Positions 7,004 through 32,056 of a DNA stretch of 32,226 nt are shown here, one piece after another. Below the pieces are notes generated by a model that was given only the letters and a program-made list of their open reading frames with translations, did no database searches and was not told the origin of the DNA. How positions within the stretch are numbered: the stretch's first letter is position 1; every line of letters begins with the position of its first letter. Source of the DNA: a virus; IMG/VR virus record IMGVR_UViG_3300042507_002119, positions 1 to 32,226 of that record; one strand, written 5' to 3'. A program made the position numbers and the translations under genes.

Positions 7004-7899
7004 AGCCAAGCCTCCTTGTATGCAAGAGAAACCGTAGTGGACGTAAGCGCCAAGACCGTTACCGTCGTGTTTCCCGTCATCATGTACGGCAAGATGGTTG
7101 TCGTGGCGAGGACGAGGTCCATGCGCAAAGTGCTGCCTACAGTAACCGTGCGGTCGTCACCATTAATCTTTACAGTCGTGTTTGCTGGGATCACTAGCGA
7201 CGTGGTGAACAGGCTTGTCCTAATGGTTGCCGTCTGCGTGCTGGCACTTGTGCTAACAAATGTTACGTCTGGGTAAATGTTGTAGTTTCCGTCGTTTGTT
7301 ACAGTGGTGGTCGTCGACGTTGACGCCGAGACGTTAAGCGAGGCAGTCCGAGTCGCCTGGGACAGTTTGCGAGGGTCCTTGGAAAATAGAGTGACCGAGG
7401 CGCGGGTCGAGACGCCTCGGTCACTTGTTTGCGGTGTAACCATGTCGTTGTTCAACTGGTACGATGGGAGCGACGTTGGTCGGACTTTCATCAACAAGTT
7501 GAGCAAGCCAGTAGTATTGTTGGACGTCGTGATGGCGGTTGGCTGAACGAAGCGCAACTCTCGGAATCCGTCGTCGGATGTGGCGTAGGATGGGTACGGG
7601 CGCATAGCCCCGTTGAGGCCGTTCAGTTTGTCGTAAAAGTCCGCTAGGCTAGAGCCGTACACTTGAACAACCATTTGAACCTGACGAGGCCCAAGCAATG
7701 CGATGTCCGCCTCAGAGCCGTCTCGCTGGGCTAGGGCCTCGGTGAATCCACCAATGCCAGCGTTTGCGTAAGAGACGTTCTCTACGAGGTAGCCAGAGAA
7801 TGGCGTACCCACTGTCGGAGCAGCCGTAATGCTGTTAAGATTGACGAACGCGCTCGTCGCAGTGCCAGTCGCGATCTGGATTGCCTTACTGAAGTCCAT
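7000..7899 (-). CDS. Dit-like distal tail protein
   Basis: This 299-aa protein has the architecture of phage distal-tail family proteins: an N-terminal beta-barrel half (to about residue 130, containing ALLGPRQVQMVVQVYG and a D-F-Y-D-K-L segment where Dit proteins have a conserved helix), then a threonine/serine-rich C-terminal half with repeated beta strands. Dit hexamers normally link the tail tube to the hub, and the hub-like gene follows immediately, sharing a TTGA junction. In a short-tailed phage an equivalent ring could sit directly under the adaptor. The identification rests on fold-like pattern and gene order; a general minor tail protein is the alternative. Confidence 0.7.
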   Translation of the reverse strand: MDFSKAIQIATGTATSAFVNLNSITAAPTVGTPFSGYLVENVSYANAGIGGFTEALAQRDGSEADIALLGPRQVQMVVQVYGSSLADFYDKLNGLNGAMRPYPSYATSDDGFRELRFVQPTAITTSNNTTGLLNLLMKVRPTSLPSYQLNNDMVTPQTSDRGVSTRASVTLFSKDPRKLSQATRTASLNVSASTSTTTTVTNDGNYNIYPDVTFVSTSASTQTATIRTSLFTTSLVIPANTTVKINGDDRTVTVGSTLRMDLVLATTTILPYMMTGNTTVTVLALTSTTVSLAYKEAWL

Positions 7900-11536: not shown

Positions 11537-14500
11537 TTACGGATTAAAGAACCTGTTGACGTCCAACTGAACGTCATCTAGTTCATTTTCGAGGGATTCG
11601 CCAAATGCGCCAGCGCCACCAAGAAGTGCGCCACCCTGGCCAAGAACGGTGCCGCGCATGATGGTCTCGCCAACAAGTGGCGGAACTTTGGAAAGTTGCT
11701 CAAACGTGAGCGGCTGGTTGCGCTGCGCTGGCTCAAGGACGCCCTTGCGGAGCCAGTACGGAGCGGCGAAGCCCAGGTTCGTGGGCGTCGCAGGGACCAT
11801 GATGTTCAAAGCGTACCACAAAGGACGAGCCTCTGCTAGTGTCGTCATGAACCCACGGTCCGTGTTCGCGTCGACAGCAAGGGCCTCTTGTAGGCGCATA
11901 GCATTGATGTAGCCAAACCCTGGTCGAACGTGACCAGCAATCTTTGGCGCGAACATCATCTTGAGCATCCACGGAATCGCCTTCTGGGTCATGTACGAGT
12001 ATGGGTAGATTCCTAGGAACGGATGGTTGATCGAACGCTCGAACCATGAGCGGTAAGAACTGAAGAACTGATACTTGTTGGCACGTCGAGTGCCACGGAT
12101 CATGGCGTCAGTGAAGACACCGTGAGCAGCGGCTGCAATCTCTCGAGCCTTGCTGGCTGGAATGCCAGCCTCGGTGACTGCCTTCGTCCACAGGCCGATG
12201 GTTGGACCAGCCTCCCTGCGGAGCACAGTGGCAAACGCCTCTGGGCTGGACTGGATCATGCCGTCCTCGAGGATGCGGGCCATGACGCTTCGACCGTCAG
12301 TGAGTCCAAACTCAGCAAACTGATCAAACGTATCTGGCATGGCCTTCTTAAGTAGGGTATACATCTCTTCGACGGCCCACTCGGACGCCATGATGTCTCG
12401 GTACATCAACTTGAACTCTTCTGGATTATTGATCGCCCAGACCCCATCCTTAATGGCGTTCTTGGCCTTCAGTACCCTAGACACTGCATTGTTAAAGTCA
12501 GGCTTCTCCCGAATGGCAGAAAGCGACGACACAAGGGCCTTCTCCTGGTCATAGAAGACGGACTCGGCGATCTCGTTCGTTACTGATCGGCTGTCCTCGG
12601 TCATTCGTCGAATCAACTTCGATGGTTTGCCGCCAAGGAACTCGTCAACCTGATCTGTTTTGATCCTGTCCATGAGGGCCATCATCTTGGTCTCGATTGG
12701 CTCAAGGATCTGGCGGAAGAACGGGTTACCCTTACCGAATCGGAAGAGTGGGAAGGCACGGTCAGTGACTGCGCCCATGACTGGCTTCCACGCCTTGGCC
12801 CGACCAGAGAACCCAGGTAGCAGGCCGACGACGCTTACGTCACCAGCAGCAGCCGTAAATAGGTCTGCGAGTGGATCGTTGTTCTCAATGTACTTGAAAT
12901 ACTCGGCGTCGCCAAGCACTTCACGGAAAATGGTTTGCACCTGATCTCGCTCGAACCAGAGGCCTCGGACCGTCGTCTCCTTGCGTGCAGAAAGGTTGCC
13001 GACTCGGGCCAGGATGATCTCTGCCTCACGGGGAGTGATGCCAACCTTCTTGGTAATGTCTGTAACAAATCGCTCGATGTAGTTTGTACGAACGACATCT
13101 GGGCCATACTCTCGGGTCATGAGATCCGAGAACTTGTCAAGGAATCCACGGCGCTTATTGGTCGTAGCCGTTACCTCGTCCAACTTGTTGATGGCAACGG
13201 TGTCGAGCAGGTCGACGAACGGCTGCGCCGAGGTTGCGATCCTGGTCCCACCGAAGCCATCAGAGACTCGGGTGGTTCGCTCAATGATGCCACCTTTTGG
13301 AGCGACGCCATAGCGGTATCCACCGAGGGCAATCTGCGCCTGCTTGGCCTTGAAGCCATCTGGCAAGAGCCGAGCCTCGGTCTCCGTTAGTTCTCGGACT
13401 GTGATCTCTGGGTGGTTTCGTACCCAGTCAACGATGTCGACAGCAGAGCCACCTTTGTTCCACCAGACCGCAGCAACGTCATCATACTTCTGCACGAGTT
13501 CGTCAGCGATTGGTCGGAATGCAGCCTCTAGTTGCTCTTCTGGCAACTTCGGCTTACTGAGTCGAGCGATCTCTCCCTCTGGAATGTCCAGTGCAGATCG
13601 AATGACCTTCTCTGACTCTTTCTCTGCGGCAATTCGACCGAGAGCCGTGTTGAGGTAATAGCCCTCGCCGTCCTTGATCCTGAAGATCGACTCTTGTTCG
13701 GATCGGATACCAGCCTCAATTGCATCCTGTACGCTGTCGTACTTAATCGATACGTCGATGTAATAGGTATCGACACCGACGCTGTCGTAGAGTCCAATAT
13801 AATGGCTGTCTAGGGACAGAAGATCTTCGTTGTCTGAAACGTACTTGGCGAGCAATTGTCGCTGGAAGTTTTTGTCCGTAAGGAATCGCTCACGATCTGC
13901 GCCAGTAAGCGCAATGCTGCGTGGCTGGTACGGCGAGTTCATGAAGCCGAAATCGTCACCAACAACCTGCTTCGTGTTTCGGATTGGGTTAAACGTCGCT
14001 CCTCCACCGCGGGCAACAAGGTCTTCGTCGATCATCTTAAGCACGTCCGAGGTTGCCTCGTTGACAGCCTTCAGCGTTTCGCTTCCGTCTGTCTCACCGA
14101 GGATCATGTTGACACGCTTGATGATCGCATCGCGTGCGTTCTGCGTGAGGCTACGCTCGCTGATCAGGGTAATTCGTGACCAGGTATCAGCATCTGGCAG
14201 CGGCTGAGGGCCGTTGTGGCTGAGCATTCGGTCGAAGACGTTGCGCAGTTCTGGGTGAATCTGCTCCGCCTTGCTGACCTTTGCCCACAGATCCGTCATG
14301 AACTGGCGAATCTGGCCAAAGAGGTCTACGAGTGCTGGGATCGGGGCGCGGCCCGTGTACATGTAGTTAGTGAAGTCCTTCGCGAATCGCTCTTCGAGTT
14401 CCGTGGTCCAACCCTTGGTTGCACCGTAGACCTGGAGCACAACACGCTGATCGACGTCAGACAAGTTGCGTCGACCAATGTGGCCGATCTCATGGATCGC

Positions 14501-26126: not shown

Positions 26127-26827
26127 TTCTTTCTCCCTGTGTTCGAGGCTGCGACAGCAGCCGCTGCTGCTTGGGCTACCTGGCCTACGATGATTGCCAC
26201 CGCGACTGGTGCTGCCTTTTCCTTCTCCTCGACCGAGAGATCTTTTCCTAGATTGGTAATCGCTGCAACGGCCTCGCCGATGCTCTCTGAGATTGCTGCG
26301 ACTGGATCAGGGGGCGGAGCCACTGGCGATGGGGGTGGCTCCGTTGGAGTTGGTGGCGCCTCTGTTGGCGTAGGTGGCGGCTCCGTCGGTGTTGGCGGAG
26401 GCTCTGTGGGTGCTGGCGTTACGCTTGGCTTAGGGCTTGGCGTAGGCTTCGGAGTTTCAGTCGGAGTAGGCGTTGGCTCTGGAGTCGGCTCTTCCGTAGG
26501 GCTAGGAGTCGGCTCTGGCGTTGGCGGTGGCGTCGGCTCGGGCGTCGGCTCGGGTGTAGGCTCTGGCGTCGGCTCAAGGCTAGGCTCCGCACTCTCGCTC
26601 GGCGATGGGGTCGGCTCCACTGGAGTTGGGTCCCACGGTCGATTCGGCAGACAGATCTGCGTCCAAGGATCGGGTTCGTCTGCCCACCAGAATGGACCCC
26701 ATAGTTTCCATTCCCCCGTGTACGGATTCGTCCCCCCGCACCAGATCTCCTGTTGGTTCGCTTGGGCGAGCCTTGGAAGCGCGAGGCTTACGAGTAGAAG
26801 TAGACTTAAAGAAAGTGCGTACCGCAA
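26123..26827 (-). CDS. Secreted Pro/Thr-stalk protein with C-terminal hydrophobic segment
   Basis: This is a 234-aa protein. An N-terminal signal peptide ([20 protein letters not shown]) precedes a tryptophan/cysteine-rich module (25-65; [12 protein letters not shown] with two cysteines), then a long PT/PE stalk (about 66-175) built of repeats of the form TEPPPTP. The C-terminal 50 residues hold a hydrophobic segment ([20 protein letters not shown]) and a basic tail (GRKK), compatible with a membrane anchor. Initiation is at TTG (26825-26827) directly after the previous stop, with GAGGA just upstream; no ATG or GTG exists in frame before the signal peptide. Beside the holin and endolysin genes, a stalk across the wall resembles a unimolecular spanin in layout, but there is no lipobox. 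Confidence 0.75.
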
Positions 26828-30611: not shown

Positions 30612-30683
30612 ATTGTACGAACTCTTCTTAAGTTAAGACCCTGGGCAGGAGGATGAGTTCGTGGCCCCCTCTGTGTCTCCCCC

Positions 30684-30715
30684 ATTTAACCAGAAAAAAG
30701 GGGGTGTTTTGTCAA
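30684..30715 (-). promoter_or_regulatory. Candidate promoter for the minus-strand array
   Basis: On the minus strand a consensus TTGACA (30710-30715) lies in an AT-rich island, and a TTAAAT-like -10 lies about 20 bases further (30684-30689). The spacer is longer than the usual 17, so this is a weak call. It is the only perfect -35 hexamer I noticed near the head of the array. Confidence 0.35.
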
Positions 30716-30857
30716 AAATAACATAAGGTATTTTTTCTTTGACTGAAAAGGGGCTTTTGTCAGGGGGAGGCCGCCTTTTCACAGGGGTGTTCAATGCGGG
30801 GTTGGGTGTTCCTCACTCTATTAGGGGATACCCCCAAAGTGCTACGGGGGGAGGGGA

Positions 30858-30876: not shown

Positions 30877-30893
30877 TGGCACGATCTGTGCCA
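30877..30893. promoter_or_regulatory. TGGCAC palindrome, copy 1
   Basis: TGGCAC-GATCT-GTGCCA is a perfect inverted repeat with 6-bp arms and a five-base centre, followed by CC. It matches copies at 30990-31006 and 32031-32047. The conserved form is TGGCAC-N3-CTGTGYCACC, typical in size for a dimeric repressor operator. Confidence 0.6.
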
Positions 30894-30900
30894 CCCATTA

Positions 30901-30950
30901 GGACAGGTAGCCTTGTCCAGCCACGACAGGTAGGGTTGTCCTGTAGGACA
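30901..30950. repeat. Cluster of GACAGG/TGTCC repeats
   Basis: GGACA (30901) pairs with TGTCC (30914); GACAGGTAG occurs twice (30902 and 30925); and TGTCCT-GT-AGGACA (30937-30950) is a perfect palindrome. Together they form an interleaved repeat cluster between the TGGCAC palindromes. Confidence 0.5.
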
Positions 30951-30989
30951 GGGCGGGTTGTCGGGGGCGGAGAGGGGGCGTCACCCTTC

Positions 30990-31006
30990 TGGCACAGACT
31001 GTGTCA
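30990..31006. promoter_or_regulatory. TGGCAC palindrome, copy 2
   Basis: TGGCAC-AGACT-GTGTCA, with one mismatch in the arms relative to copies 1 and 3, again followed by CC. The central CT is kept in all three copies. Confidence 0.58.
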
Positions 31007-31209
31007 CCCCTGACCTGACCGACCAGCCCTGAACCTGTAACAATCCATCAACGCACAGGCACATTTGCGCCACGCTGAGCGGTTCCCCCGCGTTCTGGGG
31101 TACAGCCCCACCGACTCGCTGAACGCGTCCCTCCGTTGCGCTGGGGTGCCAGTAAGCACGAGCCAAAACCGAACCCCACGCACGAATGCCGAACGCTGGC
31201 TGCTGCTGA

Positions 31210-31235
31210 TTGTTACATTGTTAAGAAAACTTAAC
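31210..31235 (+). promoter_or_regulatory. TTGTTACATTGTTA motif joined to a GTTAAG-AAAA-CTTAAC palindrome
   Basis: The 14-base motif at 31210-31223 recurs exactly at 31936-31949. Its last bases merge into a perfect 6-4-6 inverted repeat (31220-31235). It lies about 75 bases before the plus-strand gene. No good -10 is seen, so it is best read as a regulatory site. Confidence 0.5.
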
Positions 31236-31262
31236 CGCACAGGGGCTTGATACCTGCTACCG

Positions 31263-31289
31263 TCGCCTCAGGGCGAGGTGTTCTCGCCC
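31263..31289 (+). promoter_or_regulatory. Mutually exclusive hairpins in the leader of the plus-strand gene
   Basis: GGGCGAG (31271-31277) pairs with CTCGCCC (31283-31289) around GTGTT, while TCGCC (31263-31267) can pair with GGCGA (31272-31276) around TCAG. The two stems compete for the same bases and lie about 20 bases before the start codon. Confidence 0.45.
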
Positions 31290-31309
31290 ACAAACTGGAG
31301 GAACCGAAG

Positions 31310-31837
31310 ATGGCAAAGATCGCACGAATGAACGAGATGCACGAAATCCTCGCCAAGCACCTGACCGTGGCGGTCGCCTTCAAGCACACAGAGAGCGGCG
31401 CATCCAGCCGCCTCGCGTGCCTTGAATGCGGCGACTTCTACCTCAAGAACCGTGACTGGGATCTGGAGGCATACGAGGTGAAGGCTGCTCAGGTTCTGGG
31501 CGGCATCTGGTCGGGCGACGATCAGTGCGTCCACTGCGACGAGGATCTCCTCGTGCTCGCCCACAAGGTGGTCGGGCTGAACACGCAGCCACACGACTGC
31601 TGGAGCGGTCAGGGCGAGTGCCGACCGTATGCGGTCGCGTTCACCCAACTTAGCAGCGGCGACTCCATCTACGCCTGCACGGACTGCGGCAAGGCAGCCA
31701 TCCAGAAGGCAAACCCAGACCGCGAGGCATCCACGGGCGTCGCGATCACCTACGTCACCGCCGACGCCGTCCTTGGCGGGCTGCTGGAGGACGCGTCCTG
31801 CTACAAGTGCGGCAAGGATCTGGACGCACAGATCTGA
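31310..31837 (+). CDS. Duplicated zinc-ribbon-like protein, unknown function
   Basis: This is the only plus-strand gene in the window. It encodes 175 aa from the ATG at 31310, preceded by GGAGG at a good distance; the frame extends to 31247 but without a ribosome-binding site. Two similar halves are visible. One carries C37-x2-C40 and C73-x2-C76 (ACLECGD, QCVHCDED) and the other C123-x2-C126 and C164-x2-C167 (ACTDCGK, CYKCGKD), each with a VAVAF or YAVAF strand before it and a LGG turn between its cysteine pairs. Each half probably binds one zinc ion. It has its own terminator and is flanked by palindromes, so it could be a regulator or an early host-takeover protein. No family is recognised. 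Confidence 0.8.
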   Translation: MAKIARMNEMHEILAKHLTVAVAFKHTESGASSRLACLECGDFYLKNRDWDLEAYEVKAAQVLGGIWSGDDQCVHCDEDLLVLAHKVVGLNTQPHDCWSGQGECRPYAVAFTQLSSGDSIYACTDCGKAAIQKANPDREASTGVAITYVTADAVLGGLLEDASCYKCGKDLDAQI

Positions 31838-31852
31838 GCCTCGTTCGGAACT

Positions 31853-31882
31853 GGGGGCGGGCTTCGGCTCGCCCCCTTTTTT
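31853..31882 (+). terminator. Rho-independent terminator with UUCG tetraloop
   Basis: GGGGGCG (31853-31859) pairs with CGCCCCC (31870-31876); inside, a G-U pair and a GC/GC step close a TTCG tetraloop, and six T follow (31877-31882). It starts 16 bases after the stop of the plus-strand gene. Confidence 0.92.
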
Positions 31883-31896
31883 GTTGAGAAAAATTT

Positions 31897-31932
31897 GTGA
31901 TAGTTAATAAAGTGATAGAAACCTTATGATAG
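31897..31932 (+). repeat. Three spaced GTGATAG-like repeats
   Basis: GTGATAG occurs at 31897-31903 and 31912-31918, with ATGATAG at 31926-31932, spaced 15 and 14 bases apart in an AT-rich stretch. The spacing resembles iterons or a tandem activator-binding site. Confidence 0.45.
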
Positions 31933-31935
31933 GAT

Positions 31936-31949
31936 TTGTTACATTGTTA
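31936..31949 (+). repeat. TTGTTACATTGTTA motif, second copy
   Basis: This is identical to 31210-31223. Here it runs into the first LexA-like box instead of a TTAAG palindrome. Confidence 0.55.
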
Positions 31950-31953
31950 CATT

Positions 31954-31967
31954 AGAACAGATGTTCT
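31954..31967. promoter_or_regulatory. LexA-like box 1 (AGAACAGATGTTCT)
   Basis: The core GAAC-AGAT-GTTC matches the Gram-positive SOS-box core GAAC-RNRY-GTTC. It lies inside a 17-base sequence (31951-31967) repeated exactly 25 bases downstream. Confidence 0.6.
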
Positions 31968-31978
31968 GTTTGCCAATT

Positions 31979-31992
31979 AGAACAGATGTTCT
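31979..31992. promoter_or_regulatory. LexA-like box 2 (AGAACAGATGTTCT)
   Basis: This is identical to box 1 with a centre-to-centre distance of 25 bases. Tandem identical sites suggest cooperative binding by LexA or a phage repressor of similar specificity. Confidence 0.6.
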
Positions 31993-32000
31993 ATTTCCGA

Positions 32001-32031
32001 AGTTAGCACTCTCGCCCTCCGACTGCTAACT
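32001..32031. repeat. 8-bp inverted repeat AGTTAGCA / TGCTAACT
   Basis: Perfect arms at 32001-32008 and 32024-32031 surround a 15-base centre. It touches the third TGGCAC palindrome. Confidence 0.5.
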
Positions 32032-32047
32032 GGCACAACCTGTGCCA
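32031..32047. promoter_or_regulatory. TGGCAC palindrome, copy 3
   Basis: TGGCAC-AACCT-GTGCCA has perfect 6-bp arms with the same CT in the centre and the same trailing ACC as copies 1 and 2, and lies on the far side of the plus-strand gene. Confidence 0.6.
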
Positions 32048-32056
32048 CCACCCCCC

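Follow-up and report, generated by a model that had tools for sequence, protein, structure and literature searches.

Interleaved palindromes in the control region of an uncharacterized phage group as a candidate operator array

What kind of site is a short TGGCAC palindrome that occurs three times in a viral contig, on both sides of a single rightward gene, and what might bind it? The contig, IMGVR_UViG_3300042507_002119, is classed as linear, and its full 32,226 bases form the window analyzed here. The recognizable genes in the window run leftward and encode a major capsid protein, a portal, a terminase, tail proteins, an Erf-like annealing protein and a Cas4-like exonuclease. Relatives are plentiful in searches with the terminase and the capsid protein, and several of them are about 40-41 kb long. 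Two of the eight relatives assembled first, G032 and G005, carry terminal repeats of 123 and 127 bases, as complete genomes have. In the relatives, early genes spanning roughly 8-9 kb lie beyond the control region; most point rightward, and one encodes a DnaB-like helicase. The window is a truncated 32-kb contig from a phage of about 41 kb. A preliminary description of this DNA had noted only one plus-strand gene; it is indeed the sole convincing one in the window (31310-31837), but its solitude reflects the contig being cut before the rightward early genes.

The phage group is large, uncharacterized and abundant in the viral contig collection, in which marker searches returned at least 80 loci for each marker. 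The terminase had no match in the public phage record collection that was searched, and the nearest phage-record matches of the capsid protein are mixed and about 30% identical. From the sample numbers of the contigs, the group is presumably a freshwater one.

Two palindrome classes in one array

The three palindromes of the preliminary description are exact matches to TGGCACNNNCTGTGYCACC, at 30877-30895, 30990-31008 and 32031-32049, and this sequence occurs nowhere else in the record. Their number is far above chance. With up to three mismatches allowed, the record holds eight matches versus 0.67 expected, and no shuffle reached eight. The palindrome proper, termed P1, is 17 bp long in a 6-5-6 arrangement, TGGCAC-N5-GTG[C/T]CA. 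The right arm of site 2, GTGTCA, is one arm mismatch from the core, which is otherwise TGGCAC-N5-GTGCCA. A further copy with perfect arms, TGGCACGTCGAGTGCCA, lies at 12079 within an ORF of 2153 aa, 18.6 kb to the left of the control region. G026, the nearest relative, carries a comparable copy at 7443, which is 17.9 kb to the left of its own control region, so the copy at 12079 is probably a coding coincidence that the window and G026 have in common by descent.

A second palindrome class, P2 (CGACAAG-N4-CTTGTCG), is interleaved with P1. Three P2 palindromes occupy 30901-30963, between P1 sites 1 and 2; the preliminary description had missed them, and with them the array and its spacing. The features of the region are collected in Table 1.

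Table 1. Features of the control region and its right flank, with positions in the window
Feature	Positions	Strand	Sequence	Remark
Highly conserved block at the head of the leftward genes; putative leftward promoter	30677..30720	-	CTCCCCCATNTAACCA	near-invariant in relatives
P1 site 1, position A, before P2 array	30877..30893		TGGCACGATCTGTGCCA	exact match; same position in relatives
P2 palindrome 1	30901..30918		GGACAGGTAGCCTTGTCC	variant of CGACAAG-N4-CTTGTCG
P2 palindrome 2	30924..30941		CGACAGGTAGGGTTGTCC	center 23 bp from P2-1
P2 palindrome 3	30946..30963		GGACAGGGCGGGTTGTCG	center 22 bp from P2-2
P1 site 2, position B, after P2 array	30990..31006		TGGCACAGACTGTGTCA	center 43.5 bp from P2-3
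Cassette gene, 175-aa protein (zinc-ribbon gene of the preliminary description)	31310..31837	+		several CxxC pairs
Terminator-like hairpin after cassette gene	31853..31882	+		one found versus 1.9 expected in shuffles
Triple TGATAG repeat (31898, 31913, 31927)	31898..31932	+		in A+T-rich DNA
Two palindromes 25 bp apart, LexA-box-like	31954..31992		AGAACAGATGTTCT	GAAC-N4-GTTC core
CIRCE-like (HrcA operator) element	32003..32029		TTAGCACTC-N9-GACTGCTAA	one mismatch; 1 bp from P1 site 3
P1 site 3, right of cassette gene	32031..32047		TGGCACAACCTGTGCCA	exact match; identical in G026 at 26529

Between positions A and B, most lineages carry two or three P2 palindromes, whose centers are 22-23 bp apart in the relatives and in the window (array centers in the window: 208.5, 233, 256, 278 and 321.5). 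In lineages with P1 at position A, the P1-P2 center distance is most often 22.5 bp, a common value that comes partly from shared descent and so is not independent evidence. Center gaps of 43.5-44.5 bp are also seen, as though one position had been skipped, and other gaps in the relatives measure 29.5, 31, 36 and 54-60 bp. The regular spacing, much of it due to common ancestry, suggests that neighboring bound proteins would be in contact; it does not amount to strict helical phasing.

Conservation in relatives and the kind of site

In the relatives, as in the window, the palindromes lie between leftward late and rightward early genes, which bears out their first placement between divergent gene blocks. 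The block at 30677, a putative leftward promoter at which a consensus scan made no call, served as the landmark for measuring P1 positions in the relatives. Two positions are used, A at about +200 to +243 from the block and B at about +312 to +440; depending on the lineage, P1 occupies either or both and so stands before the P2 array, after it or on both sides. Such varying placement is expected if operators come and go during evolution.

P1 with at most one mismatch occurs in 16 of 22 non-redundant control regions, whereas the best of 179 arm-permuted controls reached 2 of 22. It is missing from the control region of some relatives, for example, G033. Across ten genomes (399 kb), 20 P1 matches fall within control regions (15 kb) and nine within the remaining 385 kb, a concentration of about 57-fold, with one G032 match duplicating another through the terminal repeat. 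The same genomes hold 18 P2 matches and six AGAAC-N4-GTTCT matches in control regions and none of either elsewhere. These genomes are related, so none of these counts represents independent events; the better evidence for conservation comes from the permuted controls and from the way in which positions A and B are lost and gained. Several of the analyses used our own scripts and thresholds that we chose, namely the mismatch cutoffs, a 1.5-kb control region, a 95% redundancy cut and the region lengths. The consensus search over whole genomes finds the sites concentrated in the control region, not scattered at random in coding sequence, and related phages keep P1. Both results support the earlier proposal that selection on an operator, and not a recent duplication, explains the pattern. 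The central CT that had been described as conserved fails in the relatives, in which positions 10-11 are mostly YY.

The consensus of 30 non-redundant P1 sites is TGRCAYARNYYGTGCCA, idealized as a 17-bp TGGCACA-N3-TGTGCCA; the list includes a few weak matches with two mismatches, perhaps due to chance. The left half is more variable than the right. The GG-N10-GC pattern of sigma-54 promoters, which are directional and have a conserved -12 GC, fits most of the sites, but three of the 30 have T replacing the C of GC, and conservation is two-sided. The palindromes could also act as hairpins in RNA or single-stranded DNA, given stems of 6-7 bp, loops of 3-5 nt and the presence of several palindrome sequences in the same region. 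However, the 180 arm pairs of the 30 sites comprise 157 Watson-Crick pairs, 10 G-T pairs and 13 broken by mismatch, with no compensatory double change among them, and it is the sequence itself that is conserved, especially GTGCCA. The lack of compensatory change argues that a protein recognizes the site as double-stranded DNA; it speaks against a hairpin, which we find scarcely credible. A search of Rfam gave nothing above gathering thresholds among matches at E up to 1.

The same palindrome is found outside this phage group. Tandem TGGCAC-N5-GTGCCA pairs are found in a few unrelated viral contigs and at 12 unrelated loci in bacterial genomes. The bacterial loci share no neighboring gene, and a general bacterial regulator was rejected as the binder on this ground and for want of exact P1 in the 119 genomes sampled from one actinobacterial phylum. 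We take these pairs to be independent or coincidental uses of a short palindrome. Gordonia otitidis (L208, G041) has two contigs with five exact P1-type palindromes between them, of which three form a cluster. A viral contig (L202, 1679-1727) and an Exiguobacterium locus (L212, 7620-7668) both have tandem P1-like palindromes with similar downstream sequence, cgcggaaa...tgatagcagttt. In the literature, the site sequence gave only incidental matches among the 20 of 495 papers listed.

Palindrome classes at the control region may turn over. By eye, palindromes of the TGAGG-N3-CCTCA type occupy the control regions of G024 and G033 where relatives have P1 and P2, and ACCTGAAGGAAATTCAGGT stands just before site 1 in the window; the suggestion of turnover comes from these two observations.

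The cassette gene and the right flank

The gene between sites 2 and 3 had been proposed, as one of two possibilities, to encode the protein that binds them, a zinc-ribbon protein. Its product has no family match, and its peptide patterns have no match in the viral contigs. A single-sequence structure model is uninformative (pLDDT 29.5), and the PDB matches are zinc-finger cysteine patterns. None of the 34 relatives searched, many of them with P1 sites, has a homologue, and in G026 the space between sites 2 and 3 is taken by an unrelated ORF, with flanks that match the window and both sites kept. These results eliminate the zinc-ribbon protein as a conserved binder. To the left of the cassette, identity between the window and G026 ends at site 2; to the right, similarity restarts near the terminator and the TGATAG repeats, about 140 bp before site 3. 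Because the gene is absent from the 34 relatives, gives way to a different ORF in G026 and is bounded by these borders of identity, the cassette is best regarded as an exchangeable gene that has been inserted into the control region and does not supply the binder. Within the gene (31310-31837), DNA repeats occur at offsets of about 261-273 bases, together with paired CxxC motifs, which suggests a possible internal duplication of a metal-binding unit.

The exchange could be ascribed to P1 itself, with the sites serving as recombination points for swapping the gene that lies between sites 2 and 3. The window and G026 do carry different genes there within flanks that otherwise match, and site 2 is where their identity ends. 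However, the right-hand similarity resumes well short of site 3, in many relatives the P1 sites are clustered and enclose no gene, and no integrase family was recognized in the genes examined. Recombination at P1 is therefore very improbable.

The DNA between the cassette gene and site 3 contains further repeats. TGATAG triples with 13-16-bp spacing recur in the early regions of G026 (26397, 26822, 28495 and 29473) and G024 (31511-34165, reverse), and the triple may be a promoter element of early genes. LexA-box-like palindromes and a CIRCE-like element adjoin site 3, which makes sites for host regulators possible. Host regulators would then bind the sites and let the phage read the state of its host. 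The two AGAACAGATGTTCT copies have the core of a Gram-positive-type LexA box, a likeness in sequence only, and AGAAC-N4-GTTCT is confined to control regions in the ten genomes. The CIRCE pattern TTAGCACTC-N9-GAGTGCTAA is found with one mismatch at 32003-32029, compared to 0.02 matches expected at up to three mismatches. The element is identical in G026. In addition, no phage repressor was recognized in the early genes scanned. Against a role for host regulators, exact P1 was found in none of 119 genomes sampled from one actinobacterial phylum, and tandem P1 pairs are few in bacterial genomes. Only the window and G026 have the CIRCE-like element in near-perfect form; in G016 and G024 its spacing is altered (by eye). 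Overall, we regard binding by host regulators as quite unlikely.

Known control switches and a proposed function

The array resembles known phage control switches. The OL and OR operators of lambda contain several copies of 17-bp odd-centered palindromes, with centers about 23 bp apart, between divergent gene blocks. The P1 array likewise consists of several closely spaced 17-bp odd-centered palindromes of one class between divergent blocks. Unlike in lambda, two dissimilar palindromes alternate here, no cI/cro pair or integrase was recognized, and no recognized promoter is overlapped. In mycobacteriophage BPs, palindromic repressor sites lie in an intergenic control region that has divergent promoters; gp33 is the known repressor, and immunity depends on integration (PMC4557955). 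The 12-bp BPs palindrome, CGACATATGTCG, has CGACA...TGTCG in common with P2, but spacing and length differ, and nothing resembling gp33 or integration-dependent immunity was found here. The stoperators of Cluster A mycobacteriophages (e.g., PMC9283540) are also repeated sites in a phage genome. These repressor sites are asymmetric and spread over the genome, whereas P1 and P2 are palindromes that cluster in one region.

The iterons of the lambda origin, 19-bp inverted repeats bound by O dimers (PMC5043065), point to a different function. P2 and P1 could be initiator-binding repeats of a replication origin, at which nearby A+T-rich DNA would melt and the phage DnaB-like helicase would be loaded. 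The 18-bp P2 palindromes form arrays of two or three at 22-23 bp, and the phage encodes such a helicase. The cumulative GC skew turns near the control region in several genomes, and A+T-rich stretches with TGATAG repeats lie nearby. However, A+T content is 30-43% around and just to the right of the array and rises to 62-70% only from about 31860, which places the 60-70% A+T stretch of the window about 900 bp from the P2 array rather than beside it. The array also lies between gene blocks and not inside an initiator gene, no O-like initiator was recognized, and the skew turn is confounded by the divergent orientation of the genes. An origin is an unlikely explanation.

The reading that we prefer, at about even confidence, is that P1 and P2 form an operator array of a dimeric regulator controlling divergent late and early transcription. 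A dimeric, sequence-specific DNA-binding protein would bind P1, and P1 together with P2 would make up the array in the single control region between leftward late and rightward early genes. A phage-encoded regulator may occupy neighboring sites about 22-23 bp apart, the likely outcome being control of the divergent late and early genes, probably by repressing their transcription. Protein binding, dimeric and possibly cooperative occupancy, the effect on transcription and the phage origin of the protein are what we infer from position and architecture. That the cassette differs in G026 while the sites stay speaks for operators. Against operators, P1 and P2 are about 165-310 bp from the putative leftward promoter, a scan covering only the sigma-70-type consensus found no promoter overlapping them, and some relatives have no P1 in the control region.

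The search for a binder among the early genes also counts against this reading. The preliminary description had named a phage repressor as the other possible binder; Pfam and PHROGs revealed no repressor or integrase family in the early genes scanned, a subset of ORFs, many of which have no family, and no gene family is present in exactly those relatives that have P1. A conserved 68-aa HTH-like early protein was rejected because it is also present in G033, which lacks P1; its model is of low confidence (pLDDT 66) and has no significant fold match. Another conserved early protein (L187, 4142-4531; L185, 9539-9919) has zinc-ribbon-like cysteines at its N terminus, resembles phage proteins annotated with a WYL domain and is possibly another regulator. 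The P1 half, TGGCACA, and the P2 half, CGACAAG, both fit YGRCAMR. In a bolder version of the operator reading, which we consider improbable, one phage protein would read both P1 and P2 in a phased array alongside host LexA- and HrcA-type sites, and an apparently integrase-less phage would thereby tie its early/late switch to host stress.

The array provides a defined, conserved target for studying the timing of gene expression or the start of replication in these phages, and P1 offers a short bait sequence for isolating its putative binding protein. Should the LexA-like and CIRCE-like elements prove genuine, one could directly test whether host stress is linked to phage gene expression.
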